DNA of 64,000 nucleotides from Streptosporangium carneum (GTDB lineage: Bacteria; Actinomycetota; Actinomycetes; Streptosporangiales; Streptosporangiaceae). The notes below the pieces were generated by a model. It was not told the origin of the DNA and did no database searches. It worked only from the letters and a program-made list of their open reading frames with translations. The position numbers and the translations under genes are program-made. Positions 34,937 to 51,517 of the stretch are shown piece after piece; within the stretch, counting starts at the first letter, position 1, and each line of letters begins with the position of its first letter. Location of the stretch: the NCBI RefSeq assembly GCF_027922005.1, contig NZ_BSEV01000036.1, forward strand, positions 1 to 64,000, given 5' to 3'.

Positions 34937-35608
34937 CTACCGCTGCGCGTCCCCCTCCACCCGCTCCTGCCTGTCCGCCGGCCCGGGGAGGGTGGGCTCC
35001 AGGTAATGGGCGTGGATGACCGACTCGATCCGCTCGGAGTCGCCGGAGGCGAGGCCCGCGATGACGAGGCGGTGGCGGTTGGCGGCCTCGGCCATCCCCA
35101 GCTGCTGGCGGTCGAGAGAGGATCGCATGAGCGCGTACATGTGGCCGTTCATGGTCTCCCAGAGCTCGGCCAGACGCCGCCGCCCCGAGGCCAGGACGAT
35201 CTCGCGGTGGAAGCGGGTGTCGATGTCCACCAGCTCCTGCATGTCACCGGCCTCCGCGGCGCCCGTCATCTCCTGGACGATCAGTTCGAGGCGTTCGAAG
35301 AACCCCTTGGGGAGGTTGGTGACGGCGTCGCGGGCGGCGGCGGTCTCCAGGACGCACCGGGCGTAGCAGATGTCCTGGATGTCCTCGTTGGACATGCGGG
35401 TGACCATGCTGTAACGCCGGGGGTTGATGTCGACCAGGCCCTCGTTGGACAGGTCGCGGAGCGCCTGGCGCACGGTCGCCCGGCTCACTCCGTAGTCCTC
35501 GGCGATGCCGGCCTCGACGAGGCGGGTGCCTGCGGGCAGCTCGTCGTTGAGGATCTTGCGTCGCAGCGCCAGCCGTACCGTGTCGGGTAGGGATAGGTGT
35601 TCGAGCAC
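34937..35608 (-). CDS. GntR-family (FadR/FCD) regulator, last gene of the Opp-TldD operon
   Basis: A 223-residue FadR-type regulator: winged HTH at ~10-70 (LRRKILNDELPAGTRLVEAG, then DYGVSRATVRQALRDL) and an FCD ligand domain, with helices containing DIDTRFHREIVLASG and NRHRLVIAGL that carry the Asp/His metal-ligand pattern of the family. GTG 35608 is preceded by AGGGGAA. It ends the 47-35 kb operon and is the best candidate to bind the palindrome present in front of both neighbouring operons; that link is inferred. Confidence 0.88.
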   Translation of the reverse strand: MLEHLSLPDTVRLALRRKILNDELPAGTRLVEAGIAEDYGVSRATVRQALRDLSNEGLVDINPRRYSMVTRMSNEDIQDICYARCVLETAAARDAVTNLPKGFFERLELIVQEMTGAAEAGDMQELVDIDTRFHREIVLASGRRRLAELWETMNGHMYALMRSSLDRQQLGMAEAANRHRLVIAGLASGDSERIESVIHAHYLEPTLPGPADRQERVEGDAQR

Positions 35609-35672
35609 TTCCCCTGGTGTCCTCTCTCCGTAGCTCGCGTTGACGCCTGTCTGCTTCAGTATGGGCCGCTGT

Positions 35673-36524
35673 TCAGTATGGGACGCCGTGCAGCGCGTCC
35701 TCCGTCAGCCCCGGCTCGCAGTCCGGGTCGACCGTGACGGTCAGCCGGTCCGCCGGGCCGCTGACGATGGGGGTCACTCCGGGGCCGTGTCCCGGCAGCG
35801 GGCTGTCGCCGTGCACGACGACGCCGAGCGTGCGCCAGCCGCGCCGGTAGCCCATGTTGTGCCGTACGTCGATGTCGTCCAGGCAGACGAGGTCGCCGAG
35901 GCGGAGCCCGGCCAGGCCCGGGGTGGACGGCGTGACCTGGACGTCCAGGTCCCACATCTGCGCGGGGCGGCCCAGGCCGTTGCCCGCCAGCCTGCTGGGC
36001 ACCACGCCGCGGACGGTCGCGGCCAGGCCCTCGGCGTCGATCCGCAGGGGCAGGCGCTCCAGCAGGCGGGGGTCGAGGTTGAGCAGCTCGACGCCGGGGA
36101 CGCCCAGACGCGCGCCCTGGCCGTGGGCGCGGACGCTCATCCCGTCGCCGGGGCGCAGCGCGGCCAGGTGCTCCTGCGACAGGCTGACGATCACCCGGCC
36201 CGCCTCGCCCCGCTTGCCCACGACCCGGCCCCGCGCGCCCCGCGCGGCTCCGGTGCGGACCACGACCTCGTTGCCCACGCAGGCGTAGGCGGTCAGCGCG
36301 AGGCGGGCCGACGGGTCCGGGTGGACCAGACAGGCCCCCGGCGCGGCGTGGTCGGCGTCGAAGCCGAACGCCGAGTCGCCCAGCCGCACCCCCAGCACGA
36401 CGCCCCCGTCTCCCGCCGGGACGTAGGGGCGTCCCTCGGCGTCGATCCGGTACGGGTTCATGCCGTCGATCTCGGGGTGCTCGACCACCCCGAGAAGGTT
36501 CACGGCCAGCACGGTCGCGGTCAT
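35673..36524 (-). CDS. DUF4438 protein, paralogue A
   Basis: A 283-residue DUF4438-family protein, recognisable by YRIDAEGRPYVPAGDGGVVL, RLGDSAFGFDADHAAPGACL, YACVGNEV, the HGQGARLGVPGVELLNLDPRLL-like region and the C-terminal GWRTLGVVVHGDSPLPGHGPGVT block. No enzymatic role is established for this family to my knowledge. ATG 36524 overlaps the stop of the other DUF4438 gene (ATGA). A pair of TTCAGTATGGG direct repeats (35655 and 35672) lies at its 3' end. Paralogous to the next gene upstream; the two could form a heteromer. Confidence 0.82.
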   Translation of the reverse strand: MTATVLAVNLLGVVEHPEIDGMNPYRIDAEGRPYVPAGDGGVVLGVRLGDSAFGFDADHAAPGACLVHPDPSARLALTAYACVGNEVVVRTGAARGARGRVVGKRGEAGRVIVSLSQEHLAALRPGDGMSVRAHGQGARLGVPGVELLNLDPRLLERLPLRIDAEGLAATVRGVVPSRLAGNGLGRPAQMWDLDVQVTPSTPGLAGLRLGDLVCLDDIDVRHNMGYRRGWRTLGVVVHGDSPLPGHGPGVTPIVSGPADRLTVTVDPDCEPGLTEDALHGVPY

Positions 36525-37363
36525 CGGATCCCTCCCAGGTTGGCGTCGGAGTCGTGGACGATGTGGAAGGCGTCGGCGGGGCCGCTGATCAACGAGGAGG
36601 GGCCCGGACCGTGACCGTAGAGCATGCAGTGACCGGTGGAGATCACGCCGATAGTGACATACCCGGCCCGGTGCCCGCGACCGAACCGGTGGTCGGTGTC
36701 CTCCAGCGCCACGAAGTCGCCGATCCGCAGCCCTTCCAGGCCGAGCGACAGGTCCGGCGACTGGCCCGCGTAGGCGCCCATGAGGTCGGTGTTGGCGAAC
36801 TCGGAGGCCATGCCGACGCCCGCTCCCACGGCCTCCGCGGGCGCCGTCGCGGCCACGTGCACCTCGAGTCTTCCGTCCGCGCGCGTGCCGCCCGGCATCC
36901 GCTCGATCAGGCCGGGGTCGCAGTTCTTCACCACGAGGTCGGGGTGGTCGGCGAGCCGCAGCCCCTGGCCGCGGGCGACGACCGTGACGGGGTCGCCGAC
37001 GGTGACCTCGGCGAGCGTCTCCTCGGGGAAGTCGGCGAGCACGTAGGCGTGCTGGCCGATCACGAAGCCCTCCGCTCCCGAGGCGGTGCGCACCGTGTTG
37101 CCGACGCAGGCGAGGAACTGCAGCGCCATGTTGGCGCCCGCCTCCCTGTGCCTGATGGACAGCCCCGGCTCCAGGTGGTCGGCGGCGTATCCGGTGGCGG
37201 GGTCGCCGCAGTGCACGCCGAGCGTGACCCCGCCCATGCCGGGCAGCAGGAAGGGGTGGCCGTCGGCGTCGACGTGGTAGCCGTTCCTGTTCGCGAGCGG
37301 CGGCCAGACCTCGCCGGTGAGGATCTGGGTGACCAGGCGGTCGGCGTTGGTCCTGACCCTCAT
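36521..37363 (-). CDS. DUF4438 protein, paralogue B
   Basis: A 280-residue DUF4438-family protein: NRNGYHVDADGHPFLLPGMG, CGDPATGYAADHLEPGLSIR, FLACVGNTV, ARGQGLRLADHPDLVVKNCD and GHGPGPSSLISGPAD. The same order of blocks as paralogue A shows an old duplication; the conserved GHGPG and ADH-EPG motifs are in both. The frame extends far upstream but only as antisense-like sequence. ATG 37363 overlaps the PmbA stop (ATGA). Tight coupling with TldD/PmbA suggests a role in processing or binding the same substrate. Confidence 0.82.
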   Translation of the reverse strand: MRVRTNADRLVTQILTGEVWPPLANRNGYHVDADGHPFLLPGMGGVTLGVHCGDPATGYAADHLEPGLSIRHREAGANMALQFLACVGNTVRTASGAEGFVIGQHAYVLADFPEETLAEVTVGDPVTVVARGQGLRLADHPDLVVKNCDPGLIERMPGGTRADGRLEVHVAATAPAEAVGAGVGMASEFANTDLMGAYAGQSPDLSLGLEGLRIGDFVALEDTDHRFGRGHRAGYVTIGVISTGHCMLYGHGPGPSSLISGPADAFHIVHDSDANLGGIR

Positions 37364-38715
37364 GGCCTCGGCCCGAACCTGAAGCCGCGCACCCGCAGGG
37401 CGGGGGCGGTCGCGGCGCCGTTCCACACGTTCATCAACGCCTGGGTCGCCACCCGGTCGCCGACCGCGTCCACCCTGGACAGCAGCCCGAAGACGCTCTC
37501 GGTGAACCGCTTGCCCGCCACCGGGCGGGTGATCCTGCCGTTCTCGATGAGGAAGCAGCCGTCCCTGCTCACCCCGGTGATCGTGCTCTCCTGCGGGTCG
37601 ACGACGCGGGTGTACCAGAAGCGCTGCACGTACACCCCGCGTTCGACTCCGGCGACGAGCTCGTCCTGCGGCGTCGTGCCCGGGGCCAGGACGAGGTTGG
37701 CGGGGATCGCGGCCGGGGACTCCTCGCGGGCGATGTGGGCGTGCCCGGTCGAGGGCGTGCCGAGTCTCGCGGCCGTCGCCAGGTCGGTGACCGCCTCGCC
37801 GACCCTTCCCTCGGTCAGGAAGTCGACCCGCCGTTTCGGCACCCCTTCGATGTCGAACGGGAACGGCAGCCCGACGTCGGCGAGCGCGTCGTCGGCGACC
37901 GTGATCGACGGCGCGGCCATCCGCGCGCCGGGGGTGCGGGCGACCGCCCCGACCCCGGCGGCCGCGGCCGCCCCGGTGAACCCGAACGCGCCGAAGAAGT
38001 GGAGCAGCTCCCCCGCCGCCAGCGGGCCGAGGACCACGTCCTGGACGCCGTCGGGCAGCTCGACCGGCTCCCGGCTGCGCGCGGCCTCCGCCACGGTGCG
38101 CTCGACGGCCTCCCGGACGCCGAGGGCCGGCGCGGACCTGCCGAGGTCGCACCAGTAGGACGACCCGCCGCCCGCCTTGACGGTGAGGGCGCCCGAGGCC
38201 TCGGTCGCGGCGGCGTAGGCCCGCACGCCCGCGGTGGTCGCCACCGCCAGCTCGGTGACGGCACGCCCGAACATGCCGTAGGCCCGCCCGCCCGCGGCCG
38301 CCGCCTCGCGCATGGCGTGCGCGGCGTCCCGCGAGCGGGCCGCGGCGTCCCACGCCTCCACGTCGGCGTGCCACAGATCGAGCTCCGGGTAGGGGCTCGC
38401 GGCGGCCACGCGATGGGAGGCGGGACGCCCGCCTCCGGCTCCGCCCTCCGCCAGGGCCAGCGCGGTGCGCACCGCCGCGCCGGGGTCCTCGATCCTGGAG
38501 GTGGCCGCCCTCGCCGTGCGGCCGCCCACGACGACCCTGACCATGAGCTGGCGTTCCACGATGTCCTGTGCCTGGTGGATCCGCTCCCCGGCGAACCGGG
38601 TGTACTCCCCCGAGCGCACGGTCAGGAACGCCTCCGCCTCCTCGGCTCCCTTCGCGTGGGCCAGGGCCCTCTCGAGCGCCTCGACGGCGGCGTCTCCGCC
38701 GACGTACGGTTCCAT
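37360..38715 (-). CDS. pmbA: PmbA/TldE-type subunit of a TldD/PmbA metalloprotease
   Basis: A 451-residue TldD/PmbA-family protein of the non-zinc (PmbA/TldE) type: no HExxxH is present, as expected. Typical parts are YTRFAGERIHQAQDIVERQL near the N-terminus, and TISGVSRDGCF-like (here TITGVSRDGCFLIENGRITR) and GLLSRVDAVGDRV near the C-terminus. TldD/PmbA heterodimers degrade or trim small unfolded or modified peptides, including microcin precursors. ATG 38715 has GGGAG upstream. It lies 52 bases after tldD. Confidence 0.87.
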   Translation of the reverse strand: MEPYVGGDAAVEALERALAHAKGAEEAEAFLTVRSGEYTRFAGERIHQAQDIVERQLMVRVVVGGRTARAATSRIEDPGAAVRTALALAEGGAGGGRPASHRVAAASPYPELDLWHADVEAWDAAARSRDAAHAMREAAAAGGRAYGMFGRAVTELAVATTAGVRAYAAATEASGALTVKAGGGSSYWCDLGRSAPALGVREAVERTVAEAARSREPVELPDGVQDVVLGPLAAGELLHFFGAFGFTGAAAAAGVGAVARTPGARMAAPSITVADDALADVGLPFPFDIEGVPKRRVDFLTEGRVGEAVTDLATAARLGTPSTGHAHIAREESPAAIPANLVLAPGTTPQDELVAGVERGVYVQRFWYTRVVDPQESTITGVSRDGCFLIENGRITRPVAGKRFTESVFGLLSRVDAVGDRVATQALMNVWNGAATAPALRVRGFRFGPRP

Positions 38716-38767
38716 CACGCCACTCCCGTCCCGGCCCGCGCCGTCGTCGTCGTCGCGTACGGCCTCA

Positions 38768-40237
38768 TCACGCCACCCCGATCCGCACGTCGCGCACGAG
38801 CGTCGGGGAGGCGCCGTGCCCGAGGAAGCCCCACTGCTTGGGTTCGCCCTTGCCGCAGGGCATGCCGAACGCCCTGAACTCCACGGGGCCCGCGACGGCC
38901 TCGACGGAGCCCCAGAATCGCGGCGTCACTCCGCCGTAGGAGAAGTTCTTCAGCAGCCGCCCGCGTCTGCCCCGCCGTACCTCGTAGGCGACCTCGGTGC
39001 CGAACTGGAAGTTCCAGCGCCGCTCGTCGATGGACCAGCTGCGGTTGTCGTCGACGTAGTAGCCGTCGCCGAGGCGGTCGAGCAGCTCCTCCAGGCTGCC
39101 GGAGCCGGGTTCTAGGAAGACGTTGGTCGCGAAGCAGACCGGCGGGTAGGCCCAGCCGTCGGCTCTGGCCGCGCCGACCGGGGTGAGGCCGAGCCTGGCC
39201 GCGCTGTCCCTGCTGGACAGGAAGTCGACCACGACGCCTTCGCGGATCAGCTCTCTGCGCCCGGCCGGGGTGCCCTCGTCGTCCCAGGCGAAGGAGCCCC
39301 GGGTGCCGGGAACGGTCGGGTCGGCGGTGACGTTCACCGCGGGCGAGCCGTAGCGGAGCGTGCCGAGCGCGTCCGGGGTGATGAAGGAGGCCCCGGCGAA
39401 GTTGGACTCGTCGCCGAGGATGCGGTCGAGTTCGAGGGCGTGACCGCACGACTCGTGGATCTGCAGCGCCATCTGGGCGGGACCGATCACCAGGTCCCCG
39501 GTGCCGGAGGGCGCGGGCGGCGCGGTGAGCAGGGCGACCGCCTCCTCGCCGACCCGCGCGGCCTCCTCGACGAGCCGCAGCGACTCCACGTACTCCCAGC
39601 CCGCCCCCGCGGTGTTGCCGTGGAAGGAGTTGGGGTAGGAACGGCGCTGCACGTCGTGCTCGTCGGCCGCGAAGACCATCACCGTCGCGCCCGACTCGAC
39701 CAGGTGCTGGTGCTGCCTGGACCCCTCGCTGTCGGCGAAGTGCCGGTGCTGCCGCTTGGCGTTCAGCCCCACCTCGGCCGAGACGACCTTCTCCGGCGCG
39801 CCCGCGGCGGCCAGCGCCCGGTCGAGCAGGTCGTGCCTGCCGGTGTGGGAGAAGGGGTCGATCGCGGCCTCGGTGGCGTGGCGTCCCGAGGCGGGCGGGC
39901 GCGGCGGAAGGGTGATCCGCTCGTCGCTCGCCCAGGCCGCGGCGCGGGCGCCTGCGACGGCCCGCGCCGCGACGGCGCGGATGTCGGCCTCGTCGCCGAG
40001 CGGGGCGGCGGCGAATCCCCAGACTCCGTCGAGGAGCACCCGGACGCCGACGCCCAGGTTCAGCTCGGCGCGCTCGTCGCGCTCTCCGCCGCGTCTGCCG
40101 TACAGGCGGGTCTCCTCGCACTCGACCAGCCGCACGTCGGCGTAGCCGACGCCGGGCCCCGAGGCCGCGCCGAGCGCCGTCTCGCACAGTGCCCGCGCCG
40201 TCTCGTCGTCGTGGGCCGAGCCCCATTCGTGCGTCAC
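38768..40237 (-). CDS. tldD: TldD-type zinc metalloprotease subunit
   Basis: A 489-residue TldD-family protein with the zinc site H261-ESCG-H266 (QIHESCGHALELDRILG). It has the family C-terminal region (FSYGGVTPRFWGSVEAV, then FGMPCGKGEPKQW). The active site is expected to face a closed cavity formed with the PmbA subunit, limiting substrates to flexible peptides. GTG 40237 overlaps the oxidoreductase stop (GTGA). Co-operonic with an Opp importer, it should act on imported peptide-like compounds rather than on a maturing antibiotic, since no precursor-peptide gene is visible. Confidence 0.9.
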   Translation of the reverse strand: MTHEWGSAHDDETARALCETALGAASGPGVGYADVRLVECEETRLYGRRGGERDERAELNLGVGVRVLLDGVWGFAAAPLGDEADIRAVAARAVAGARAAAWASDERITLPPRPPASGRHATEAAIDPFSHTGRHDLLDRALAAAGAPEKVVSAEVGLNAKRQHRHFADSEGSRQHQHLVESGATVMVFAADEHDVQRRSYPNSFHGNTAGAGWEYVESLRLVEEAARVGEEAVALLTAPPAPSGTGDLVIGPAQMALQIHESCGHALELDRILGDESNFAGASFITPDALGTLRYGSPAVNVTADPTVPGTRGSFAWDDEGTPAGRRELIREGVVVDFLSSRDSAARLGLTPVGAARADGWAYPPVCFATNVFLEPGSGSLEELLDRLGDGYYVDDNRSWSIDERRWNFQFGTEVAYEVRRGRRGRLLKNFSYGGVTPRFWGSVEAVAGPVEFRAFGMPCGKGEPKQWGFLGHGASPTLVRDVRIGVA

Positions 40238-41373
40238 CGGGCCTCCTCGGGTGAGGCCTCGAGGGGGAAGGAGACCCAGCGGCGTTCGCGGAAGGACCTC
40301 TCGAAGGTGTTGACGGTCTCCTGGACCAGCGCGCCCTGCGCGAAGTCGCCCTGGTTGGCCGGGCCGCCGGACAGCAGTTCGTCGGCGAAGTCCTTGCAGA
40401 GGTTGGAGTAGAACAGGAAGGGCCAGTCCTCGGTGGAGCCGCCGCCCTCGGGGAAGAAGCGTTGCGGGATCTCCCGCTCGACGAACTCCACGGAGTCCTT
40501 GGTCGCCGTCCTGATCGTCTGGCAGACGCCGAACTCCTCGACGAGCCTGACGATGATCGCGCCCTCGGAGCCGTAGACGCGCGCCTCGATGCCGGGGTAG
40601 TTGCCGACCGTGACGAACGACGACTGGATCGAGGCGAGCGCGCCGCTTTCGAACTCGGCGATCCACATGTCGCCGTCGTCGATGTTCATCCGGGTCATCA
40701 GGCCGGTGTCGCGCACGACGCGTTCGGGGACGAAGTTGCGCATCGTCCCGACCACGGAGGTCATGGGCGAGCCGACCCACCAGTGCATGATGTCGATGAT
40801 CGGCGCGCCGTACCCCTCGATGGACGACACCTGGATGACGTCGGGGTCGGCGTTCGGGTCCTCCTGGCGCAGCGGGTTCGACGGGTCGAGCCACTGGCTG
40901 TTCTGCTCGTAGCCGTTGAAGATGTACGGCTCGCCCACGAAACCGGCGTCGATGAGCTCCTTGGCGTACTGCACGGCGGGCGCGTATCTGAAGGTGAAGC
41001 CCAGTTTGGTCTTCAGCCCCTTCGACCTGGCCAGCTCCGCGGCCCGCCGGGTCTGCCGGTAGTCCTTGTGCACCGGCTTCTCGCAGAGCACGTGCTTGCC
41101 CGCCTCCAGGGCGGCCCAGGTGATCTCGAAGTGCGTCCGGTTGCCGGTGGTCACGTCGATCACGTCGATCGCCGGGTCGTCGAGCAGCTCGCGGTAGTCG
41201 GTGACGCGGCGGCCGACGCCGAAGCGTTCGCCCACCTCCGCGACCAGCTCGGCGTCGACGTCGGCGAGGGCGACCACTTCGACGCGGGGGTCGCGCTGCC
41301 AGCCGGGGATGTGGGCGGCCTGCGCCCAGCGGCCCGCGCCCACCACGGCGACCCGCAGCTTGTCCTGTCCCAT
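40234..41373 (-). CDS. Gfo/Idh/MocA-family NAD(P)-dependent oxidoreductase
   Basis: A 379-residue dehydrogenase. The Rossmann motif is GAGRWA (12-17), and the family EKP signature is E98-K99-P100 (LCEKPVHKDY), with the lysine in catalysis. DIMHWWVGSP supplies the His region of the C-terminal domain. Members act on sugars, inositols and some amino-containing or aromatic substrates. It lies between the permease DppB gene (50 bases) and tldD (4-base overlap), so it is an integral part of the operon and hints that the imported compound carries a sugar-like or hydroxyl moiety. Confidence 0.9.
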   Translation of the reverse strand: MGQDKLRVAVVGAGRWAQAAHIPGWQRDPRVEVVALADVDAELVAEVGERFGVGRRVTDYRELLDDPAIDVIDVTTGNRTHFEITWAALEAGKHVLCEKPVHKDYRQTRRAAELARSKGLKTKLGFTFRYAPAVQYAKELIDAGFVGEPYIFNGYEQNSQWLDPSNPLRQEDPNADPDVIQVSSIEGYGAPIIDIMHWWVGSPMTSVVGTMRNFVPERVVRDTGLMTRMNIDDGDMWIAEFESGALASIQSSFVTVGNYPGIEARVYGSEGAIIVRLVEEFGVCQTIRTATKDSVEFVEREIPQRFFPEGGGSTEDWPFLFYSNLCKDFADELLSGGPANQGDFAQGALVQETVNTFERSFRERRWVSFPLEASPEEAR

Positions 41374-41423: not shown

Positions 41424-42356
41424 TCAGCGGCGGTTGCGCACGCGCGGGTCAACGACCGCGTACGTGAGGTCGACCAGGAAGTTCATGACGACGACGAAGA
41501 AGGCGGCGAAGAGCACCGCGCCCGTGACGATCGGGATGTCGAGCTGGTCGATGGCGTCGTAGGTCAGCTTGCCGACGCCCGGCAGGCCGAAGACCGACTC
41601 GATGATCAGGACTCCGCCCAGGAAGTAGCCGAAGTCCATCCCGATCATGGTGATCAGCGGGGTGAGCCCGTTGCGCAGCGCGTGCCTGGTCAGGATCGTG
41701 CGCTCACGCAGGCCCTTGGCGCGGGCCATCTGGATGTACGGCGAGCGCAGCACCTCCAGCATCTGGGTGCGCGTCATCCGGGCGTACCACGCCGCGCCCG
41801 CCAGGCCGAGGGTGAAGGTCGGCAGCGCCAGGTACCACCAGAGCGGGTCGCCGAGCCCGTTCAGCGGGAAGACCGAGGAGCGGTAGGCCAGGTAGTAGAG
41901 CAGCAGCAGACCGATCCAGAACGGCGGCGCGGACAGGCCGATGAGCGCACCCAGCGTGGCGAGCCGGTCGGCGGCGCTCTTCGGCCGGTAGGCGGCCACG
42001 ATCCCCGCGGGGACCCCCAGGACGAGCTGCCAGAGCACACCGCCGAGCGCGATGAGCGCGGTGGTCGGCAGCGCCTGGAGGATCTGTCCGGCGACCGGCG
42101 CGCCGTGCAGCGCGTAGGACGTGCCGAGGTCGCCTCGCAGGAGGCGTCCGAGGAAGGCGGTGTACTGGGACCAGAGCGGGGCGTCGAGGCCGAGCTGGTG
42201 GCGGATCGAGGCCACGGTCGCGGCGTCGGCGTTGGGGCCCGCGATCAGCCTGGCCGGGTCGCCGGGCACGGCGTAGGCCATGAAGAAGGCGAGCGTGACC
42301 ACGCCGAGCAGGACCAGCGCCGTCTGCCCGATCCGCCGCAGAACCCATCCCGTCAC
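41424..42356 (-). CDS. ABC transporter permease, DppB/OppB type
   Basis: A 310-residue permease with six membrane segments. Recognisable parts: first helix and AVPGDPARLIAGPNAD loop, GDLGTSYALHGAPV, the EAA-like motif RSPYIQMARAKGLRERTI, and the terminal VDLTYAVVDPRVRNR. It pairs with the DppC-type permease starting 5 bases away upstream. Part of the complete importer (binding protein, two permeases, two ATPases) of the 47-35 kb operon. Confidence 0.93.
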   Translation of the reverse strand: MTGWVLRRIGQTALVLLGVVTLAFFMAYAVPGDPARLIAGPNADAATVASIRHQLGLDAPLWSQYTAFLGRLLRGDLGTSYALHGAPVAGQILQALPTTALIALGGVLWQLVLGVPAGIVAAYRPKSAADRLATLGALIGLSAPPFWIGLLLLYYLAYRSSVFPLNGLGDPLWWYLALPTFTLGLAGAAWYARMTRTQMLEVLRSPYIQMARAKGLRERTILTRHALRNGLTPLITMIGMDFGYFLGGVLIIESVFGLPGVGKLTYDAIDQLDIPIVTGAVLFAAFFVVVMNFLVDLTYAVVDPRVRNRR

Positions 42357-43293: not shown

Positions 43294-44258
43294 GGGGCCG
43301 CCTCCTCTCGGGCGGGCTCGGACGCGAGATGGCAGGCGGCGAGCTGGCCGCCCTGTTTGACCGCCAGCTCCGGCCTGGTGGTCCGGCAGACGTCCTGGGC
43401 GAGCGGGCAGCGCGGATGGAAGGCGCAGCCCGTCGGCGGGTGGGCGGGGCTCGGCGGCTCCCCGGCGAGCCTGACCCGCCGGGCCGCGCGGCTCGCACCC
43501 GGCACCGGCACGGCCGCCAGCAACGCCTGTGTGTAGGGATGCCGGGGGGCGCCGAACACCTGGTCCCGGGTGCCGATCTCCACCAGCCTGCCGAGATACA
43601 TGATCGCCACCCGGTCGGCCGCGAACCGCATCGTGGACAGGTCGTGGGAGATGAACAGGTAGGCCAGGCCGCTGTCCTCCTGGATGTCCTTGAGGAGGTT
43701 GAGGATCTGGGCCCGCACCGAGACGTCGAGCGCGGAGACCGCCTCGTCGCAGGCGATCACGGCCGGGTCGACGCCGAGCGCGCGGGCGATGGACACCCGC
43801 TGGCGCTGTCCTCCGGACAGCTCGTGCGGATAGCGGACGGCGAAGGCGGCCGGCAGTCCCACCCGCTCCAGCAGTTCCCGTACCCGGCCGGGGCGCTCCG
43901 CGGCCGGGACGCCCTTGACGAGCAGCGCCTCCTCGACGGTCGCGCCGATCTTCATGCGCGGGTCGAGGGAGTCGTAGGGATCCTGGTAGACCATCTGCAT
44001 CTGACGCCGGAACGCCTTCAGCGAGGCCCCCCTGAGGCCCGCGATGTCGCGGCCTCCGATGCGGACGCGCCCGCCCGCCGGGTCGGTGATGCGCAGCAGC
44101 GCACGGGCGACCGTGCTCTTGCCCGACCCCGACTCACCGGCCAGGCCCAGGGTCTCGCCGGGCGCGATCGTGAACGAGACACCGTCCACGGCCCGCACGG
44201 TCACACCCCTGCGGCGGGAGAAGTGCACGCGCAGGTTCTCCACCTCCACGATGTTCAC
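43290..44258 (-). CDS. ABC transporter ATP-binding protein, DppF/OppF type
   Basis: A 322-residue ATPase with Walker [10 protein letters not shown]-loop [12 protein letters not shown], signature LSGGQRQR, Walker [11 protein letters not shown] (Ala-Val where DEPTSALD is usual) and the C-terminal oligopeptide extension [14 protein letters not shown] with its Cys cluster. The start overlaps the upstream ATPase stop by 4 bases. Together with DppD it energises the importer. Confidence 0.93.
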
Positions 44259-45262
44259 CTCCCGTTCTCCTCTCTCGTGGCGATCTCTCTCGTGTCTCTC
44301 GTGGCGATCTCTCTCGTGGCGACGTGGCAGGCGACGCCGCCCGTCAGCGGCGGGTCCGCCTCATGGCAGACGTCCTCGGCCAGCGGGCAGCGCGAGGCGA
44401 ACGAGCAGCCCGGCGGGCGCGTCCCCGCCTGGGGAGGGCTGCCGGGGATGGACGGCAGCCTGCGTGGCAGCGGCCCCGTCATGCTCGGGATGGAGCCGAG
44501 CAGCGCGCGGGTGTAGGGATGCCGGGGAGCGCCGACGATCTCCTCGATCGTGCCGCTCTCGACCACCCGCCCCGCGTACATGACGAGGACGCGGTCGCAG
44601 AAGGTGGAGACGACACCGAGGTCGTGACTGATCAGGATGACCGCGGTGCCGAGCTCCGAGGTCATGCGGTCCATCAGGTCGAGCACCTGCGCCTGCACGG
44701 TGACGTCGAGCGCCGTGGTCGGCTCGTCCGCGATGAGCAGCTTGGGCGAGCACGAGGCGGCGATGGCGATGGCGACCCGCTGCCGCATGCCGCCGGAGAA
44801 CGTCATCGGGTAGTCGCGCAGCCGGGCGGGGGCGTCCGGGATGCCCACCTCGGACAGCAGCTCCACGGCCCGTGCGACCGCGGTCCTGCGATCCGTCCCG
44901 AGGTGCTCGCGGAGCGTCTCGGTGACCTGCCGCCCGATCCGCACCAGCGGGTTGAGGCTGGACAGCGGATCCTGGAACACCATGGCCGCCTGCGCGCCTC
45001 GCCAGCGGCGCAGCTCGTCCTTGGAGAAGCCGAGCACGTCGCGCCCCTCGAAGCGGACGGCGCCCGCCTCGACGGTGGCGGCCGGTCCGAGCAGCCGCAT
45101 GAGGGCCTGGGCGGTGACGGACTTGCCTGAGCCCGACTCGCCGACGATGCCCAGGCGCTCACCCGCGGCGACGGAGAAGGAGACCCCGCGAACAGCCGTG
45201 TGGTCGCCGTTCGGCGTCGCGAAGCGGACGACGAGGTCGTCCACGTCGAGCAGCGCGTCCAT
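44255..45262 (-). CDS. ABC transporter ATP-binding protein, DppD/OppD type, with repetitive C-terminal tail
   Basis: A 335-residue ATPase: Walker [10 protein letters not shown]-loop [12 protein letters not shown], signature FSGGMRQR, Walker [12 protein letters not shown] and the Cys-rich extension [14 protein letters not shown]. After the usual end, the last ~20 residues are a low-complexity repeat ([19 protein letters not shown]) encoded by tandem 15-bp units. This is not part of the fold and its length may vary between strains. ATG 45262 lies 62 bases after the binding-protein gene. Confidence 0.92.
44271..44322. repeat. Short tandem repeat inside the DppD C-terminus
   Basis: Units of TCTCTCGTGGCGATC (15 bp) occur at 44271, 44295 and 44310 (the last incomplete), with a 9-bp partial unit TCTCTCGTG at 44286. 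All lengths are multiples of three, so the frame is preserved; each full unit encodes ATREI on the minus strand. Slippage would change tail length without breaking the gene or the overlapping start of the next ATPase. Confidence 0.85.
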
Positions 45263-45324: not shown

Positions 45325-46983
45325 TCAGTCGGTCGGCCTGCCGTCGGTCTTCCAGTAGTTGGTCATGTCCCAGGCCCAGACGGGTTGCGGGAAGTAGCCC
45401 CCCACGTTCTTGCCGAAGACCTCGGTCTTGGAGCCGTAGTAGAGCGGCACGAGCGAGCCGCCGGCCAGGAGCCTGGTGGTGGCCTGCGCGTAGAGCTTCT
45501 GGGCCTCGTCGGGAGAGTCGGTGGCCAGCGCCTTGGCGACCAGTGCGTCGGTCTCCTCGTCGCAGGAGAAGGCGTAGTTCTGGCCACCCTGGACGGCGGC
45601 GGCGCAGGCGGTGAGCGCCTGGAAGAAGTTGCTGCCCTCGGGGTAGTCCGCCACCCAGAAGGAGAGCGCCATCGGGGCCTTGCCGGGGGTGCCCGCCAGC
45701 TCGAAGAACGTGCTCTGCTGGAGCGGGCGCGGATCCGCCTTGACGCCGATCTTGGCCAGGTCCTGCTGAAGCTGCGGCAGCAGGTTGGTCCAGGGCGGGG
45801 TGTTCCAGGAGTACAGCGTGGTGGAGAAGCCGTCGGGATAGCCCGCCTCGGCGAGCAGCTGCCTGGCCTTGGCGATGTCCTGGTCGTGAACCAGCTTCTC
45901 CTCGGTGTGACCGACCACGCCCGGCGGCAGGAACTCGTTGGCGACCTGGCCCTGACCGTTGACCAGCTTGAGCAGGAACGCCCGGTCGATGGCGTAGGAG
46001 ACGGCCTCACGCACCTTCGGGTTGTCGAACGGCTTCATCTTGACGTTCAACGTCAGGAAGTACGTGCTCGGCTTGGCGATCGTGATGGTCTGGTCCTTCA
46101 GCGTCGCGTTGGCCGTCACCGACAGGTACTGCGCGGGCGGGATCGGGTCGCCCATCAGGTCGATCTCCCCCTTCTCCAGCTGCAGGAGCTGCACGTCGGG
46201 GTTGACGCCGAGCCGCTCGACGACCTTGTCGACGTAGGGGCGGGGCCTGTCCCAGTACGTGGGGTTCTTCTCCAGCACGATCTGACGGCCCGGGGAGAAC
46301 TCCTTGAAGGTGAACGGGCCGGAGCCGAGCGGCTGGGCGGCCGCCTTGTCGCCCGAGCCCTCGGGGATCACCGACGCGTGCGGCATGGCCAGGATGTACT
46401 TGAAGGCGGAGTTGGGCTGGGTGAGCTCGATCCGCAGTTCGCCGTCGGAGACCGCCTGGATGCCCTTGGGCGTGCCCTCCGGCTTCTTGCCGTACTCCTC
46501 CGCTCCCACGACGCCGGTCCAGAAGCCGCGCACCGGCGACTTGGTGGCGGGGTCGAGGATGCGGGAGAAGGAGTAGGCGAAGTCCCGCGCCCTGACGGGC
46601 GAGCCGTCGGAGAAGGTCATGCCGGGCCTGATCTTGACGGTGTAGGTCCTGCCGTCGGGTGAGACGGCGGGGGGCTCGGCGGCGCCCTGCGGGACGAGCT
46701 CGCTGGTGGAGCCCTTGTAGTCGTACAGGCGGTCGTAGAGCATCCGCATGTTGTTCCAGCACGTCGCGTCGTAGCAGACGGCCGGGTCGAACGTCTTGGG
46801 GTCGGACTTGTAGGCGACGGTCATCGTGCCGCCGAGACGGGGTGAGCCCGTGGCGGGGCTCGTGCCGGACGTGCCGGAGGTTCCGGCGTTCTTCTGGACC
46901 GCGCCGCAGGCGGGCGCCGTCGCGAGCAGGGCCACGGTCGTCGCCGTGGCGAACATGACGCGGGACCGGCGTGGTTTCGCCAT
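45325..46983 (-). CDS. Peptide-type ABC transporter substrate-binding lipoprotein (SBP_bac_5)
   Basis: A 552-residue lipoprotein, first gene of the 47-35 kb operon. The signal peptide (RRSRVMFATATTVALLATAP then AC) ends in a lipobox-like APAC, and a Gly/Ser/Thr-rich linker follows. The SBP_bac_5 fold is shown by MTVAYKSDPKTFDPAVCYDA and YTVKIRPGMTFSDGSPVRAR, plus DPATKSPVRGFW. ATG 46983 is chosen for the GAGGAGGGAATCA just before it; the frame is open 147 bases further. The preceding region holds the palindromic operator. Confidence 0.93.
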   Translation of the reverse strand: MAKPRRSRVMFATATTVALLATAPACGAVQKNAGTSGTSGTSPATGSPRLGGTMTVAYKSDPKTFDPAVCYDATCWNNMRMLYDRLYDYKGSTSELVPQGAAEPPAVSPDGRTYTVKIRPGMTFSDGSPVRARDFAYSFSRILDPATKSPVRGFWTGVVGAEEYGKKPEGTPKGIQAVSDGELRIELTQPNSAFKYILAMPHASVIPEGSGDKAAAQPLGSGPFTFKEFSPGRQIVLEKNPTYWDRPRPYVDKVVERLGVNPDVQLLQLEKGEIDLMGDPIPPAQYLSVTANATLKDQTITIAKPSTYFLTLNVKMKPFDNPKVREAVSYAIDRAFLLKLVNGQGQVANEFLPPGVVGHTEEKLVHDQDIAKARQLLAEAGYPDGFSTTLYSWNTPPWTNLLPQLQQDLAKIGVKADPRPLQQSTFFELAGTPGKAPMALSFWVADYPEGSNFFQALTACAAAVQGGQNYAFSCDEETDALVAKALATDSPDEAQKLYAQATTRLLAGGSLVPLYYGSKTEVFGKNVGGYFPQPVWAWDMTNYWKTDGRPTD

Positions 46984-47078: not shown

Positions 47079-47095
47079 TTGTCGATCGTCGACAA
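47079..47095. promoter_or_regulatory. Perfect 17-bp palindromic operator in front of the Opp-TldD operon
   Basis: TTGTCGATCGTCGACAA, a 7-3-7 perfect inverted repeat, followed by an extra TCGACAATA half-site. It lies about 96 bases upstream of the binding-protein start. The same 17 bases plus flanking sequence recur at 51501-51517 before the second operon. TTGT...ACAA outer bases fit FadR-type GntR operators, and a GntR gene closes the operon. Identity of the binding protein is inferred. Confidence 0.75.
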
Positions 47096-47502
47096 TCGAC
47101 AATATGGAGGGAGATTCTGGCGGGCGTCAATAGCGGATTCGCCCCGTTATGAATCTGCGTTCAACACGCGTCCGAGCACGGCGACTCACGCCCTCACGGC
47201 ACTCGCGACCAGGGCACGCGTCAATACGGTAGGCGACTGCAGCCCCTCTGACCAGGGGCGATGAACGATCGCGGGCGAAAGGCGCGTTCCCCGCCGTACC
47301 GTTCGGCACGTGGCGGCGCGGGGGCCGGCGCGCCGACATCCCGCCCGGGCGCGACGGGCACACACCACGCCCGCACTCCCGCCGCGCCGGTACGGCGAGC
47401 GGTGACACGGACCGGACCGCCCCTGGACCGCCCCCGGACCGGCGCCGGTGAACGGCGCACGGCCCGGTGAAGGGAACGGCCCGGTGAAAGGGTGACTTCG
47501 GC
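47096..47502. other. 407-base intergenic stretch between the two operons
   Basis: No convincing gene on either strand. It contains the GCCCCT/AGGGGC hairpin at 47242-47259 (6-bp stem, 6-base loop) and a CGGCCCGGTGAA direct repeat (47459-47486). The part nearest the operator is AT-richer and probably holds the promoter of the Opp-TldD operon; the rest may be the 3' untranslated region of the aminotransferase operon. Confidence 0.4.
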
Positions 47503-48732
47503 TCAGGAGGAGAGATGGGCCGCCAGGCGGCGCAGGCCCTCCTCGATCGCCTCGGGGGCCGCGGCGAGCGAGAGCCGTACGGCCCCCTCCCCGCCCGGCC
47601 CGAAGGCCGCGCCGGGGGCCACGGCCACGCCGCGGGTGCGCAGCAGGTCCATGGCCAGCTCCGCCGAGGGACGGCCTCCCACGTCGAGCCAGAGGTAGAA
47701 CGCCCCCTCCGGCCTGAGCGCGGGCAGTCCCACCTCCTGCGCCACCGCGAGCGCGAGGTCCCGGCGGGCGCGGTAGGCCGCGCGCATCTCCTCGACCGGT
47801 TCCTGGGGACCGCGCAGCGCGGCGAGCGCGGCGTGCTGCGCGGGTGTGGAGACGCAGGAGACGGCCGTCTCCTGCACCCGGGCGATCCGTTCGGCTAGGG
47901 GCCTCCCCGCCACCACGTACCCGACGCGCCAGCCGGTCATCGCGTACGTCTTGGAGAAGGAGAACACGCTGACCACCGGCGCGTCAGGCGCGAGTGCGGC
48001 CATGGATCGGGAGGGCTCGTCCAGCCAGAGCTGGTCGTAGCACTCGTCGGCGATCACCCAGATCCCGTGCCGCGCGGCCCACTCCGCGACCGCCGCGAGC
48101 GTCGTGCCCGGCCAGACCGTCCCCAGCGGGTTCGCCGGTGAGTTGACCAGCACGGCGCGGGTGCGCGCCGTCACCGACCGGTCCAGCCGTTCCAGGTCGG
48201 GGAGGTATCCGTCGGAGGGGAGCAGCCGGTATCCCACCGGACGGGCCCCGGCCAGGTGGGCGAGATTGGTGAAGTTCGGCCATCCGGGGTCGGGGACCAG
48301 GATCTCGTCGCCCTCGTCGAGCAACGCCCGGTAGACGGCGTACAGGCCCTCGACGGCCCCGCAGGAGACGAAGACCTCCTCCGGCGCGGCGGCGACGCCG
48401 TTCACCGTGCCCACCTTGGCGGCCAGGGCCTCACGTAGCTCCGGGATCCCCGCGGTCGGGGCGTAGCGGGTGGCCCCGCCCCTGGTCGCGGTGTACGCCG
48501 CCTCGACGATGTGAGGCGGCGTGGCGAAGTCGGGTTCGCCCAGCTCGAGGCGGATCGCCCCCGGCACCCGCCAGGCCGCGTTGGCCACCGCCCTGATCCC
48601 GGAGCCGGTGATCCGGCCGACCGCCCCCGAGAGGCCGGGCGGGGCGCCGGCCTGCGGAACGGCCCGCCTCGGCTCCTTCGCGCTCCCCGGCGGCCCGGCG
48701 GCCACCGTCCCCGGCGGCCCCTGGGCCGTCAC
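47503..48732 (-). CDS. PLP-dependent class I/II aminotransferase
   Basis: A 409-residue fold-type I aminotransferase. LELGEPDFATPPHIVEAAY and SPANPLGTV are the substrate and PLP-binding landmarks, the Schiff-base lysine is K261 in SFSKTYAMTGWRVGY, and the C-terminal arginine is in GAVRLSLAA. The N-terminal ~35 residues are a Pro/Gly-rich extension; GTG 48732 is kept because it overlaps the SDR stop (GTGA). Last of the four genes behind the second operator. Amino donor and acceptor are unknown; branched or aromatic 2-oxo acids are possible. Confidence 0.9.
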   Translation of the reverse strand: MTAQGPPGTVAAGPPGSAKEPRRAVPQAGAPPGLSGAVGRITGSGIRAVANAAWRVPGAIRLELGEPDFATPPHIVEAAYTATRGGATRYAPTAGIPELREALAAKVGTVNGVAAAPEEVFVSCGAVEGLYAVYRALLDEGDEILVPDPGWPNFTNLAHLAGARPVGYRLLPSDGYLPDLERLDRSVTARTRAVLVNSPANPLGTVWPGTTLAAVAEWAARHGIWVIADECYDQLWLDEPSRSMAALAPDAPVVSVFSFSKTYAMTGWRVGYVVAGRPLAERIARVQETAVSCVSTPAQHAALAALRGPQEPVEEMRAAYRARRDLALAVAQEVGLPALRPEGAFYLWLDVGGRPSAELAMDLLRTRGVAVAPGAAFGPGGEGAVRLSLAAAPEAIEEGLRRLAAHLSS

Positions 48733-49520
48733 GGAAGGCCCCTGAGCAGGCCGCCGTCGCACGCGATGGTGGACCCGGTGACGTACGAGGCCGCGGCGGA
48801 GGCGAGAAAGGCGACGACGGCGCCGAACTCCTCCGGCGTGCCGTAGCGGCGCGCGGGGATGGCGGCCCGGCTGCGTGAGCGGACCTCTTCGGGATCGACG
48901 CCCTCGCGTTCTGCCGCCGCCTCGTCGAGGGAGGCGACCCTGGGGGTGGCGATCCGTCCGGGCATGACACCGTTGACCGTCACCCCGTCCGCCGCCACCT
49001 CGCGGGCGACGGTCTTCAGCCAGGCGTTCAGCGCGGAACGCCCCGCGTTGGAGTACACCAGGTTGGGGATGGGCTCGCGGACGCCCGAGGAGAGCACGGC
49101 GAGAACGCGCCCGTACCCCCGTTCGCGCATGCCGGGCAGCAGCCGGGTGGCCAGGTCGATGGGGGTGACGGCCAGCAGCTGGAACGCGGCGCGCCAGCCG
49201 TCCGGGGTCGTGGCGTCGGGCGGCGCCGAGGGCGGGCCGCCCGCGTTGAGCACCAGCACGTCGACCCCGCCGAGCCGCTCACGGGCGACGCGTTCGACCT
49301 CGGCCGCCGCGTCCGGGTCGCCGGCGTCGGCCGCGACGACGGCGGGCCTTGCGCCGTACCGGCTCTCGATCTCCCGGGCGGTCGCCTCAAGGCGACCCTC
49401 GTCACGCGCCCAGAGCAGCAGCTCGGCGCCCTCGGCGGCCAGGGCGTGCGCGCTCGCGCGGCCGAGGCCGGAGGTGGCGCCGCCGACGAGCGCGCGCCTG
49501 CCGGTCAGTCCGAGGTCCAT
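48729..49520 (-). CDS. Short-chain dehydrogenase/reductase with atypical active site
   Basis: A 263-residue Rossmann-fold protein: GGATSGLG cofactor motif, LNAGGP, and C-terminal GSTIACDGGLLRGLP. At the catalytic YxxxK position the sequence is SNAGR within IPNLVYSNAGRSALNAW, i.e. Ser and Arg take the places of Tyr and Lys; a Tyr precedes by one residue. This SNxxR subtype is found in a subset of SDRs and need not be a standard carbonyl reductase. ATG 49520 shares one base with the aldolase stop (TGATG). Third gene of the operon. Confidence 0.88.
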   Translation of the reverse strand: MDLGLTGRRALVGGATSGLGRASAHALAAEGAELLLWARDEGRLEATAREIESRYGARPAVVAADAGDPDAAAEVERVARERLGGVDVLVLNAGGPPSAPPDATTPDGWRAAFQLLAVTPIDLATRLLPGMRERGYGRVLAVLSSGVREPIPNLVYSNAGRSALNAWLKTVAREVAADGVTVNGVMPGRIATPRVASLDEAAAEREGVDPEEVRSRSRAAIPARRYGTPEEFGAVVAFLASAAASYVTGSTIACDGGLLRGLP

Positions 49521-50434
49521 CACCTCACCTCCAGCGGCTCTGGCCCGGGGACGATCCCCACGCGGGCCAGCACGTCGTCCAGCTCGGCGCTCGTGACCTC
49601 GTCGACCGTCGGGGCGAGCCCCCTGGTGCGCGCCGTCTCCAGGACGCCGCGCCTGCGGAGCACCTCCTTGCGGATGGCGAGGCCGACGCCGACCTGCCCC
49701 TCGAAGGCGATGTAGGGCAGGTAGCGGTCGAAGATCCGGGCCGCACGGACCCGGTCGCCCTCTTCCAGCGCCCCGCGGACGGCCTTGAGGATCTCGGGGA
49801 AGGCGAAGCCGGTCATGGTGCCCGCGGCCCCCCGGTTGAGCTCGTCGTAGGCGGCGACCCCGCCCAGCCCGCCGAACACGGTGAGACCCGGCGCGGCGGC
49901 GAGCAGCTTTGTGATCTTGGGTGGAGTCGGCGGGTCCTCCAGCTTGACGACGTCGGAGCCGGCGGCGGTCATGGCGGCCAGCAGCGCGGACACGGGGATC
50001 CTGACCCCGGTGGCGTTCGGCTCGTCCTGGACGATGATCGGCAGCTCGGTGTCCTGCCGGACGCGCTCGAAGAACCTCGCCAGGCCGTCCACGTCCGGCA
50101 GGAGCGGAGGCGCGGCGACCATGGCCGCCGCCGCGCCGTACGACGCGGCCTGCCGGACGCGCTCGCGCACCAGCGACGGCGAGGCGGCGGAGCAACCCGC
50201 CGCGAACGGCAGCCGCCCCTGCGCCGCCTTGGCGACCGTGGTCAGGACGGCCTCCCGCTCGGCGTCGGAAAGGCTGGTGACCTCGCCCATCACCCCGAGG
50301 ACGGTCACGCCGTCCGCTCCCCACGCGGCCGCCCGCTCGACCGTGCGGGCGATGCTCGCCTCGTCGACGCGGTCATCCTGGGTGAACGGCGTGGGCACGA
50401 TGTACCACGTGCCGTGGAAACGTTCCTGTGTCAC
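49520..50434 (-). CDS. DapA-superfamily (dihydrodipicolinate synthase-like) aldolase/lyase
   Basis: A 304-residue (beta/alpha)8 protein. The Schiff-base lysine is K164 in VVKLEDPPTPP, and the pyruvate-binding GxMGE motif is VLGVMGEVTSL. The Tyr of the usual YNxP motif is absent: the strand reads PIIVQDEPN. This argues against true dihydrodipicolinate synthase and for a lyase or dehydratase of the sugar-acid or hydroxy-amino-acid branch. GTG 50434 has GAGAAGGG upstream. It lies 22 bases after the dehydrogenase gene. Confidence 0.88.
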   Translation of the reverse strand: MTQERFHGTWYIVPTPFTQDDRVDEASIARTVERAAAWGADGVTVLGVMGEVTSLSDAEREAVLTTVAKAAQGRLPFAAGCSAASPSLVRERVRQAASYGAAAAMVAAPPLLPDVDGLARFFERVRQDTELPIIVQDEPNATGVRIPVSALLAAMTAAGSDVVKLEDPPTPPKITKLLAAAPGLTVFGGLGGVAAYDELNRGAAGTMTGFAFPEILKAVRGALEEGDRVRAARIFDRYLPYIAFEGQVGVGLAIRKEVLRRRGVLETARTRGLAPTVDEVTSAELDDVLARVGIVPGPEPLEVR

Positions 50435-50456
50435 CTGTCAGCAGCCCTTCTCACGG

Positions 50457-51488
50457 TCAGTAGCCTCTCTCGCGGTCGAACAGGTTGCGCAGCGGGCGGC
50501 CGTCCAGCCAGCGCCGCAGGTTGTCGGTGAAAAGCTCGGTGATCGTCCCGTTCTCGCTGTCGACGGTCGAGGCCGAGTGCGGGGAGACGATGACGTTGTC
50601 CATTCCCCACAGCGGGGAGCCGGTCGGCAACGGCTCGGTCGAGAAGACGTCCAGGCAGGCCCCGCCGAGGTGGCGGGCAGCCAGCGCGTCGACCAGCGCG
50701 CCCTCGTCGACCACCTGGCCGCGCGCGATGTTGACCAGGACGGCTCCCGGGGCGAGCGCGGCGAGTTGCCCCGCGCCGATCAGCCCCTCGGTCTCGTCGG
50801 TGAGCGGACAGGCCAGAACCAGCGCGTCGGCTCCGGCCAGGGCGGCGTCGATCGCGGTGAACGGGTGCAGCTCGGTCAGGCCGGGGACGTCGTACGCTCT
50901 GCCTGGCCTGCCCACGCCGACGACCTCGACTCCGAGGGCCGAGAAGACCCGGACGACCTGTCGTCCGATGCCGCCGAGGCCGACCACGACCACCCGCCGT
51001 CCCGCGAGCCCCCGGGTGGTGTAGCGCTCCCAGTGACGGGCGGCCTGCCAGCGTCGCAGTTCGGGGAGGCCCTTGACGAAGTGCAGCACGCCGGTGAGCG
51101 CGAACTCCGCCAGGGGGACGGCGTGGACGCCGGCGGCGGTGGTGAGGACGAGGTCGCTGTCGGACAGGCGGGTCCTGCGGACGAACTGGCCGATCCCCGC
51201 GCTGGTGGCCTGCACCCAGCGCAGGTCCGGGCAGTTGACCGGCATGCCCGCCGGATCCCACCAGTCGAAGTCGAAGCTGACCTGCGCCCTGGCGAGCAGG
51301 TCGCGCCAGCGCTTGAGCTCGGGTTCCGGCAGCTCGGGCCGCACACCGGTGTGATCGGCGGGATAGCGCGGGCGCGGCAGCAGGTCCGGCTCGTAGAGCA
51401 CCTCCAGACGCCGGTCGGCGGCCTCGATGGCCTCCACATGCTCGGGTTCCAACGGCGATGCCACCAGCACGCGGAGCTTGTCCGACAC
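50457..51488 (-). CDS. D-2-hydroxyacid dehydrogenase (NAD-dependent)
   Basis: A 343-residue dehydrogenase. The Rossmann motif is VGLGGIGRQ, and the catalytic set is Arg in NIARGQVVDE, Glu in STEPLP and His in SPHSAS. The substrate-side N-terminal domain carries an insert (DFDWWDPAGMPVNCPDLRWV), as in the hydroxypyruvate-reductase-like subgroup. GTG 51488 is chosen with GGAGG four bases upstream; GTG 51491 is too close. First gene behind the second operator. It would interconvert a 2-oxo acid and its D-hydroxy acid. Confidence 0.9.
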   Translation of the reverse strand: MSDKLRVLVASPLEPEHVEAIEAADRRLEVLYEPDLLPRPRYPADHTGVRPELPEPELKRWRDLLARAQVSFDFDWWDPAGMPVNCPDLRWVQATSAGIGQFVRRTRLSDSDLVLTTAAGVHAVPLAEFALTGVLHFVKGLPELRRWQAARHWERYTTRGLAGRRVVVVGLGGIGRQVVRVFSALGVEVVGVGRPGRAYDVPGLTELHPFTAIDAALAGADALVLACPLTDETEGLIGAGQLAALAPGAVLVNIARGQVVDEGALVDALAARHLGGACLDVFSTEPLPTGSPLWGMDNVIVSPHSASTVDSENGTITELFTDNLRRWLDGRPLRNLFDRERGY

Positions 51489-51500
51489 CACGCCTCCAAA

Positions 51501-51517
51501 TTGTCGATCGTCGACAA
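51501..51517. promoter_or_regulatory. Second copy of the 17-bp palindromic operator
   Basis: TTGTCGATCGTCGACAA again, 12 bases upstream of the dehydrogenase start and directly next to its Shine-Dalgarno sequence, so repressor binding would block initiation. Similarity to the 47079 site extends beyond the palindrome (26 of 28 bases from the first T), including the extra TCGAC half-site. Confidence 0.78.

Follow-up and report, generated by a model that had tools for sequence, protein, structure and literature searches.

Do two adjoining operons of Streptosporangium carneum, which together encode an Opp-type importer, a TldD/PmbA pair, two DUF4438 proteins, a GntR regulator and several metabolic enzymes, work as one system, and on what kind of compound? 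They lie in a window of 64,000 nucleotides (positions 1 to 64,000 of NZ_BSEV01000036.1; contig C36 in this analysis; assembly of 9.84 Mb; G+C 71%) and comprise 15 genes (11 + 4), all on the minus strand, in a first operon at 34937-46983 and a second at 47503-51488. Features were named by Pfam profile matches, with the nearest solved structures listed by chain. The original prediction, made from this sequence alone, had the gene calls and coordinates of both operons right, in gene limits as in Pfam names. Its statement that most first-operon junctions overlap by 1-4 bases held in part: 4-base overlaps exist, but only at five of the ten junctions, the other five being gaps of 4-64 bases. One frame in the list of open reading frames (38715-40226) was wrong at TldD; the true gene, 38768-40237, has a GTG start that overlaps the stop of the Gfo/Idh/MocA dehydrogenase (Gfo) gene. 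Altogether, we consider it moderately probable that the locus is a two-operon, GntR-repressed import-and-catabolism regulon for an amide-containing hydroxy- or amino-acid compound. Taken separately, the regulon and its shared function are highly probable, the catabolic direction is probable, and an amide- or peptide-like substrate has about an even chance. The finding itself is real and more conserved than a single-sequence reading could show: the gene set, the unique operators, the conservation of both across genera and phyla and the intact metal-binding motifs of TldD can all be read in the DNA.

The same palindrome does precede both operons, as had been claimed. The operator TTGTCGATTGTCGACGATCGACAA, a 24-bp palindrome, stands upstream of the binding-protein gene, and a copy with one change near one end stands upstream of the D-2-hydroxyacid dehydrogenase (D2HDH) gene. 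When the whole assembly was searched with up to 3 mismatches, the 24-bp pattern was found at these two places and at no third, and the control, the same pattern read backwards, gave zero matches; the 20-bp core (up to 3 mismatches) occurred twice in the window vs 0.02 times expected from window shuffles. Operator 1 overlaps by two bases the -10-like hexamer of a promoter-like sequence, TTGACG-18-CATATT (a consensus match only; 0.0 expected in shuffles), so that its position fits repression. A promoter scan upstream of the second operon, on the D2HDH side, passed no candidate. Proteins of the GntR/FCD family usually act as repressors that a ligand releases, and the one encoded here is the probable repressor of both operons. 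The locus thus pairs a GntR/FCD regulator with a conserved palindromic operator at its target genes; a self-encoded regulator and a palindrome over promoter-like sequence are common to GntR/FCD-controlled catabolic operons, whereas the overlapping 24-bp double palindrome is unlike theirs.

Scanning one genome per species over 84,980 species returned 70 loci, grouped by record titles: 28 actinobacterial (L021-L048), one Bacillota metagenome-assembled genome (MAG; L049), 32 Chloroflexota (L050-L081; titled Chloroflexi, Chloroflexota or Anaerolineae) and nine others (L082-L090: two Marinimicrobia, one Omnitrophica, three actinobacterial with a diverged pair and three gut Firmicutes). We searched the DNA outside named genes for the operator core TTGTCGACAA, allowing up to one change; upstream regions were set by BLAST-named genes, and their boundaries are rough. 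In L021-L049 the core (at most one mismatch) reached 0.754/kb upstream of cluster genes vs 0.020/kb elsewhere (25 vs 10 sites; 19/29 loci), and six control palindromes built from shuffled half-sites gave 0 sites upstream of cluster genes. With at most one change it lies upstream of cluster genes in Actinomycetota, the Bacillota MAG and Chloroflexota; in the last, 18 of the 32 loci have the exact 10-mer upstream, 52-188 bp ahead of where the first DUF4438 match begins, and it occurs 0 times elsewhere. Sites in relatives precede D2HDH, OppA and Gfo (OppA in the Bacillota MAG), and also a second short-chain dehydrogenase/reductase (SDR) gene (L014, L024, L097) and a second aminotransferase gene (Agreia, L038 and L048, Microbacteriaceae). 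The Trebonia TldD/PmbA pair, which stands apart from its cluster, has an operator site of its own (L033:13126), which, for hosts that have the pair, is the strongest sign of its membership in the regulon.

Gene order likewise links the two operons. Four Micromonosporaceae genera (Asanoa, Hamadaea, Dactylosporangium and Paractinoplanes) carry the complete set of 15 genes as a colinear array, D2HDH-DapA-SDR-aminotransferase-OppA-OppD-OppF-permeases-Gfo-TldD-PmbA-DUF4438a-DUF4438b-GntR. Microlunatus flavus has D2HDH-DapA-SDR-aminotransferase divergent from an operon with a second importer form, with operator-like sites between them; in Spongiactinospora the matching pieces are spread over three contigs. 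In Streptosporangium saharense D2HDH adjoins the importer, and the fetched stretch holds no DapA, SDR or aminotransferase gene (best DapA match in the genome, 6e-11). The colinearity in four genera and the operator core recurring upstream of cluster genes together indicate that the two operons belong together; their co-regulation and shared function are well supported by sequence comparison, and the earlier proposal of one regulon is strongly strengthened by these two results and by the unique operators.

The predicted co-occurrence in relatives was also found, with DUF4438, Gfo, D2HDH and the importer as the most constant parts and TldD/PmbA as optional ones. Two DUF4438 genes are present in 66 of the 70 loci (single genes: L085, L088, L089, L090), and the pair is in tandem in 29/29 of L021-L049. 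For these 29 loci (E<=1e-10, any identity; upstream pieces added for seven loci, several contigs cut) we counted Gfo in 28, at 71-90% identity in 27 of L021-L048 where it was found, and D2HDH near DUF4438 in 27 (L027 is an 11.8 kb contig; the L047 genome has D2HDH elsewhere). Each permease occurs in 26/29, the two ATPases in 26 and 22, the binding protein in 19, GntR in 24, PmbA in 23, TldD in 22, the aminotransferase in 17, the SDR in 7 and the DapA-type lyase in 6. Some of these may be paralogues, since 11 of the 17 aminotransferase matches are distant (24-32%), as are one SDR (28%) and one GntR (29%). The constant parts are thus the DUF4438 pair, Gfo, D2HDH and the importer in Actinomycetota and the Bacillota MAG; in Chloroflexota they are the pair, usually a D2HDH-like protein and an aminotransferase (24/32 loci), and often the importer (both permeases in 13/32). 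Among L082-L090, D2HDH occurs in 4 and any importer part in 4. Additional Chloroflexota genes encode glyoxalase, Ldh_2, SDR, luciferase-like monooxygenase and FAD oxidoreductase proteins; an acetamidase/formamidase-family gene lies in seven of those loci, and an AstE/AspA-family gene only in L049. A tandem family of ~580-aa proteins (4-5 members; one scanned member has a bacterial SH3 domain) lies upstream of D2HDH in the Chloroflexota MAGs L056, L059, L061, L063, L070 and L076.

Among 150 sampled genomes of the family, 6 carry DUF4438, S. carneum included. D2HDH at >=53% identity occurred in 10, namely all 6 DUF4438-positive genomes and G026, G099, G114 and G129 (an eleventh, in G084, is 41% identical), and Gfo at E<=1e-90 in 4, every one DUF4438-positive; the DUF4438-positive G001 and G048, which lack that Gfo, carry a diverged pair. 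Across 396 genomes of the phylum the sole DUF4438 match above cut-off was that of S. carneum, with one weak match besides, and the system is therefore rare. Distances between cluster genes correlate in the actinobacterial loci (Mantel r 0.69-0.88; 0/999 permutations as high), a result to which we give little weight, as plain species descent would produce the same.

The DUF4438 pair is the interesting part of the regulon, the others being of known kinds. Both copies match PF14505 and PF20999 above cut-off. DUF4438a was modelled with a pLDDT of 94.4 from a 46-row alignment (32.8 from the single sequence), and all 7 Foldseek matches in the PDB at E<=0.001 are chains of TM1086 of Thermotoga maritima (PDB 3dcl, 3n99; best E 2e-29, next best 0.29). 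Copy a shares that fold (TM-score 0.91); unlike TM1086, this cluster has two diverged tandem copies. As TM1086 is the only fold relative, no function can be read from the fold. Of seven papers listed for TM1086, most seem to concern worm strains of that name, and one treats methods of crystallisation. D62, H63, C86 and N89 are among the residues invariant in the 46 DUF4438a rows, and E65, H105, D193, D224 and H251 among those kept in at least 90%; two of these, Glu65 and His105, are absent from copy b. The conserved residues may form an active site. Our tentative proposal, which we hold at somewhat less than even odds, is that DUF4438a/b is a new orphan-fold two-subunit enzyme with an active site of Asp62-His63, Cys86, Asn89 and His251, catalysing the committed step of a multi-phylum pathway that dismantles a widespread natural product; a role as the committed enzyme, taken by itself, is perhaps slightly easier to accept, and stays short of even odds. 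In the DUF4438 tree, which bears on whether the duplication was a single old event, 100 of the 132 paired copies agree with the best split, and each of the 32 Chloroflexota second copies groups with first copies. The four single genes lack the cluster neighbourhood, except for one distant ATPase in L085, and a search for DUF4438a on plasmids gave no match. A DUF1028 gene follows the diverged DUF4438 pair in L083, L084 and L086. DUF4438 has had a solved structure and no assigned function; it now has a strong genomic context of regulon, partners and operator, and its function becomes a testable question through derepression of one repressor and the following of uptake.

The original prediction had placed TldD/PmbA at the central cleavage step, and this is not supported: TldD is missing from 7/29 of L021-L049 and was not found in the five Chloroflexota genomes searched. 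Among the seven, L022 is cut inside PmbA; the other six have the DUF4438 pair and D2HDH (6/6) and, in 5/6 (all but L032), the importer. We searched 14 genomes whose loci have no TldD close by; several are MAGs, so that absence is not proof. At E<=0.001 TldD was not found in the five Chloroflexota genomes (MAGs of unstated completeness), G565, G570 and G577, and the best match in the remaining six is at most 40% identical. Judged by their distribution, TldD/PmbA, DapA and SDR are accessory or optional parts. Where present, the pair keeps its motif pattern, with HExxxH in 22/22 TldD relatives of L021-L049 (one partial), CGK in 22/22, and HExxxH in 0/23 PmbA-like relatives (one a fragment). The S. 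carneum pair itself fits the TldD/TldE (PmbA) rule of MEROPS M103, HExxxH and CGK in TldD and no HExxxH in the partner; it is unlike other TldD/TldE pairs in being optional and under a shared operator. Excerpts of PMC5810440 name His262, His267 and Cys454 as holding the metal in E. coli TldD, none of them present in TldE, and describe roles for Cys454, Gly455 and Lys456; our assignment of CGK as third-ligand Cys plus Gly-Lys goes by motif instead of alignment. The title of a review that PMC10885120 cites mentions N-deacetylases as part of the TldD family; the substrate therefore need not be a peptide, and the pair may act as an N-deacylase on a small molecule. The optional pair suggests a role for TldD/PmbA other than peptide-antibiotic maturation. 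The S. carneum genome has a second TldD/PmbA pair, which lies outside the cluster (G000:C6:227681-229931).

How the parts might act together can be sketched from their families. The importer has the full Opp/Dpp set, an SBP_bac_5 binding protein, two permeases and two oligo_HPY ATPases; it departs from the usual Opp/Dpp pattern in that one or the other of two forms is found, depending on the locus (binding protein 46-89% vs 27-29% identical). The best named relatives of the binding protein are peptide binders, followed by heme, nickel and agrocinopine binders. Its nearest solved chain, 8upi, we take to be perhaps a Mesorhizobium protein with bound aminoserine, which we do not use as evidence; the open-access literature searched held no paper on 8UPI. 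For the regulator, DUF4438, TldD/PmbA, Gfo and the four second-operon enzymes, NCBIfam listed no match above cut-off, and so we claim no substrate from them. The VKLED motif of the DapA-type protein is found in 6/7 relatives (the seventh is a fragment), and the YSNxGR of the SDR in all seven compared. Opp-type systems import, and 2-keto acids are the meeting point of D-2-hydroxyacid dehydrogenases, aminotransferases and DapA-type lyases. In the mechanism that we propose, the cluster's own GntR/FCD repressor would hold both operons off at the two nearly identical palindromes until the compound or an early product binds it and both open. The importer would bring in a small amide-containing compound with 2-hydroxy- or 2-amino-acid parts, DUF4438a and b together would carry out the defining chemical step common to all hosts, and Gfo would oxidise a hydroxyl. 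D2HDH and the aminotransferase could then interconvert 2-hydroxy, 2-keto and 2-amino acids, and in some hosts the DapA-type lyase and SDR would pass the 2-keto acid to central metabolism; TldD/PmbA may hydrolyse an amide, either a peptide bond or an N-acyl cap, in the forms of the substrate that some hosts meet. Import and breakdown, the earlier reading, remains the likeliest one, its transport direction, chemistry and substrate being drawn from family knowledge. The earlier remark that no such pathway is described agrees with the open-access literature searched, which held no paper on DUF4438 or PF14505, nor any combining TldD with lincomycin, mycothiol and ergothioneine; of 59 matches on TldD with importer and catabolism, the 20 listed include no title that deals with a cluster like this one. 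Apart from the orphan DUF4438 pair, the regulon combines known kinds of parts in a catabolic arrangement for which no description was found.

Several observations weigh against import and catabolism of an amide-containing compound by one regulon. The importer type is the sole ground for the direction of transport, and Gfo, DapA and D2HDH, taken as sugar-acid enzymes, would suit a substrate derived from sugar almost equally well. The 32 Chloroflexota loci (E<=1e-8; many cut) have weaker partners, with D2HDH-like proteins in 25 (~34-39% identity), any importer part in 18, GntR in 11, and no Gfo, TldD or PmbA; once one mismatch is allowed, their operator contrast is weaker too (26 sites upstream vs 31 elsewhere). 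Loci within one phylum are not independent. L034, L037, L038, L040 and L048 have an operator upstream of the binding-protein gene, but the stretch fetched for them shows no close GntR; in these Microbacteriaceae-type loci (a placement that we assume for L034, L037 and L040) the regulator may lie elsewhere or have been replaced. L105 (G099; 9891-13344) holds only D2HDH-DapA-SDR-GntR with an exact operator core, and no aminotransferase, importer, Gfo, TldD/PmbA or DUF4438 there; it is a natural reduced version of the regulon. In L106-L108 (G129, G114, G026) D2HDH is 56-74% identical and has no cluster partner but distant ATPases in L108, and the genes beside it in the DUF4438-free L106 and L107 show no shared pathway.

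The best-surviving alternative, unlikely but to be taken seriously, is that the regulon degrades a sugar-derived compound (a glycoside, aminosugar or aldonic acid): the importer would carry an oligosaccharide-like molecule, Gfo oxidise the sugar, the DapA-type enzyme cleave a 2-keto-3-deoxy acid, and TldD/PmbA only deacylate an amino group. This fits the best NCBIfam matches of Gfo, levoglucosan and inositol dehydrogenases (all far below cut-off), the nearest solved structures of the DapA-type protein (3dz1, 2e-44, then L-2-keto-3-deoxyarabonate dehydratase), the second or third Gfo genes in L014, L024 and L035, and a xylose-isomerase-like barrel that recurs as a neighbour in four Chloroflexota loci. 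However, of the 19 recurrent neighbour clusters that lack a window counterpart, 11 were scanned and include no glycoside hydrolase or sugar kinase, and the peptide binders that lead the binding protein's relatives (the heme, nickel and agrocinopine binders behind them notwithstanding), the aminotransferase in 17/29 loci and the acetamidase/formamidase-family genes also speak against a sugar. Far less probable is a cluster that makes a modified peptide and has TldD/PmbA as the protease that matures it. Excerpts of PMC10885120 and PMC5810440 have TldD/E maturing microcin B17, whose precursor it cleaves successively from the N-terminus (PMC10885120), and other peptides, and an excerpt of PMC4351081 places TldD/PmbA-superfamily genes in lincosamide clusters; yet the 15 genes include no modifying enzyme, which a cluster for a ribosomally made and modified peptide would have beside its precursor, and no exporter, TldD/PmbA is optional, and the Asanoa gap between aminotransferase and binding-protein genes is ~100 bases (L093:7679-7781), with little room for a conserved precursor. 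The corresponding gap in the window holds short open reading frames, listed without a conservation test. Two unrelated neighbouring nutrient operons under a shared broad repressor are just as improbable, for although the DapA-SDR-aminotransferase set (>=56% identity) is in only 6/29 loci and not in the fetched S. saharense stretch, and L105 has its four genes alone, the operons are colinear in four genera and divergent around operator-like sites in Microlunatus, the assembly has just two operator sites, and the second-operon D2HDH keeps to DUF4438 in 27/29 loci.

Table 1. Genes and regulatory sites of the two operons, in window coordinates
Feature	Coordinates	Strand	Evidence and remarks
GntR/FCD regulator, probable repressor of both operons	34937..35608	-	Pfam FCD 5e-21, GntR 2e-14
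DUF4438b, N + C domains	35673..36524	-	Pfam PF14505 5e-34, PF20999 2e-22
DUF4438a, N + C domains	36521..37363	-	Pfam PF14505 3e-40, PF20999 1e-30; TM1086 relative 2e-53
PmbA/TldE-like partner, without HExxxH	37360..38718	-	Pfam PF19289 8e-41
TldD-like metallopeptidase/amidase, HESCGH + CGK motifs	38768..40237	-	Pfam PF19289 5e-36; 5nj5 TldD 4e-22
Gfo/Idh/MocA dehydrogenase	40234..41373	-	Pfam 8e-27
Opp-type permease (BPD_transp_1_N)	41424..42356	-	Pfam BPD_transp_1 5e-39
Opp-type permease (OppC_N)	42361..43293	-	Pfam 9e-31
Opp-type ATPase (oligo_HPY)	43290..44258	-	Pfam 2e-30
Opp-type ATPase (oligo_HPY)	44255..45262	-	Pfam 5e-28
SBP_bac_5 solute-binding protein	45325..46983	-	Pfam 1e-91; nearest solved chain 8upi 8e-105
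Operator 1, upstream of binding-protein gene	47079..47102	.	palindrome search
Promoter-like TTGACG-18-CATATT, -10 overlaps operator 1 by 2 bases	47101..47130	-	consensus match only
Class I/II aminotransferase	47503..48762	-	Pfam 5e-67; start uncertain, GTG at 48705 possible
SDR, YSNxGR replacing YxxxK	48729..49523	-	Pfam 4e-44
DapA-superfamily lyase/aldolase, VKLED lysine kept	49520..50434	-	Pfam 7e-21
D2HDH	50457..51488	-	Pfam 9e-50
Operator 2, upstream of D2HDH gene	51501..51524	.	palindrome search

Elsewhere in the window, a possible second peptide-type cluster at 8365-20591 has two SBP_bac_5 proteins, an oligo_HPY ATPase, a PucR-type regulator and two beta-lactamase-family proteins, and a MocR-type protein, in which a GntR helix-turn-helix is fused to an aminotransferase domain, is encoded at 5108-6706.

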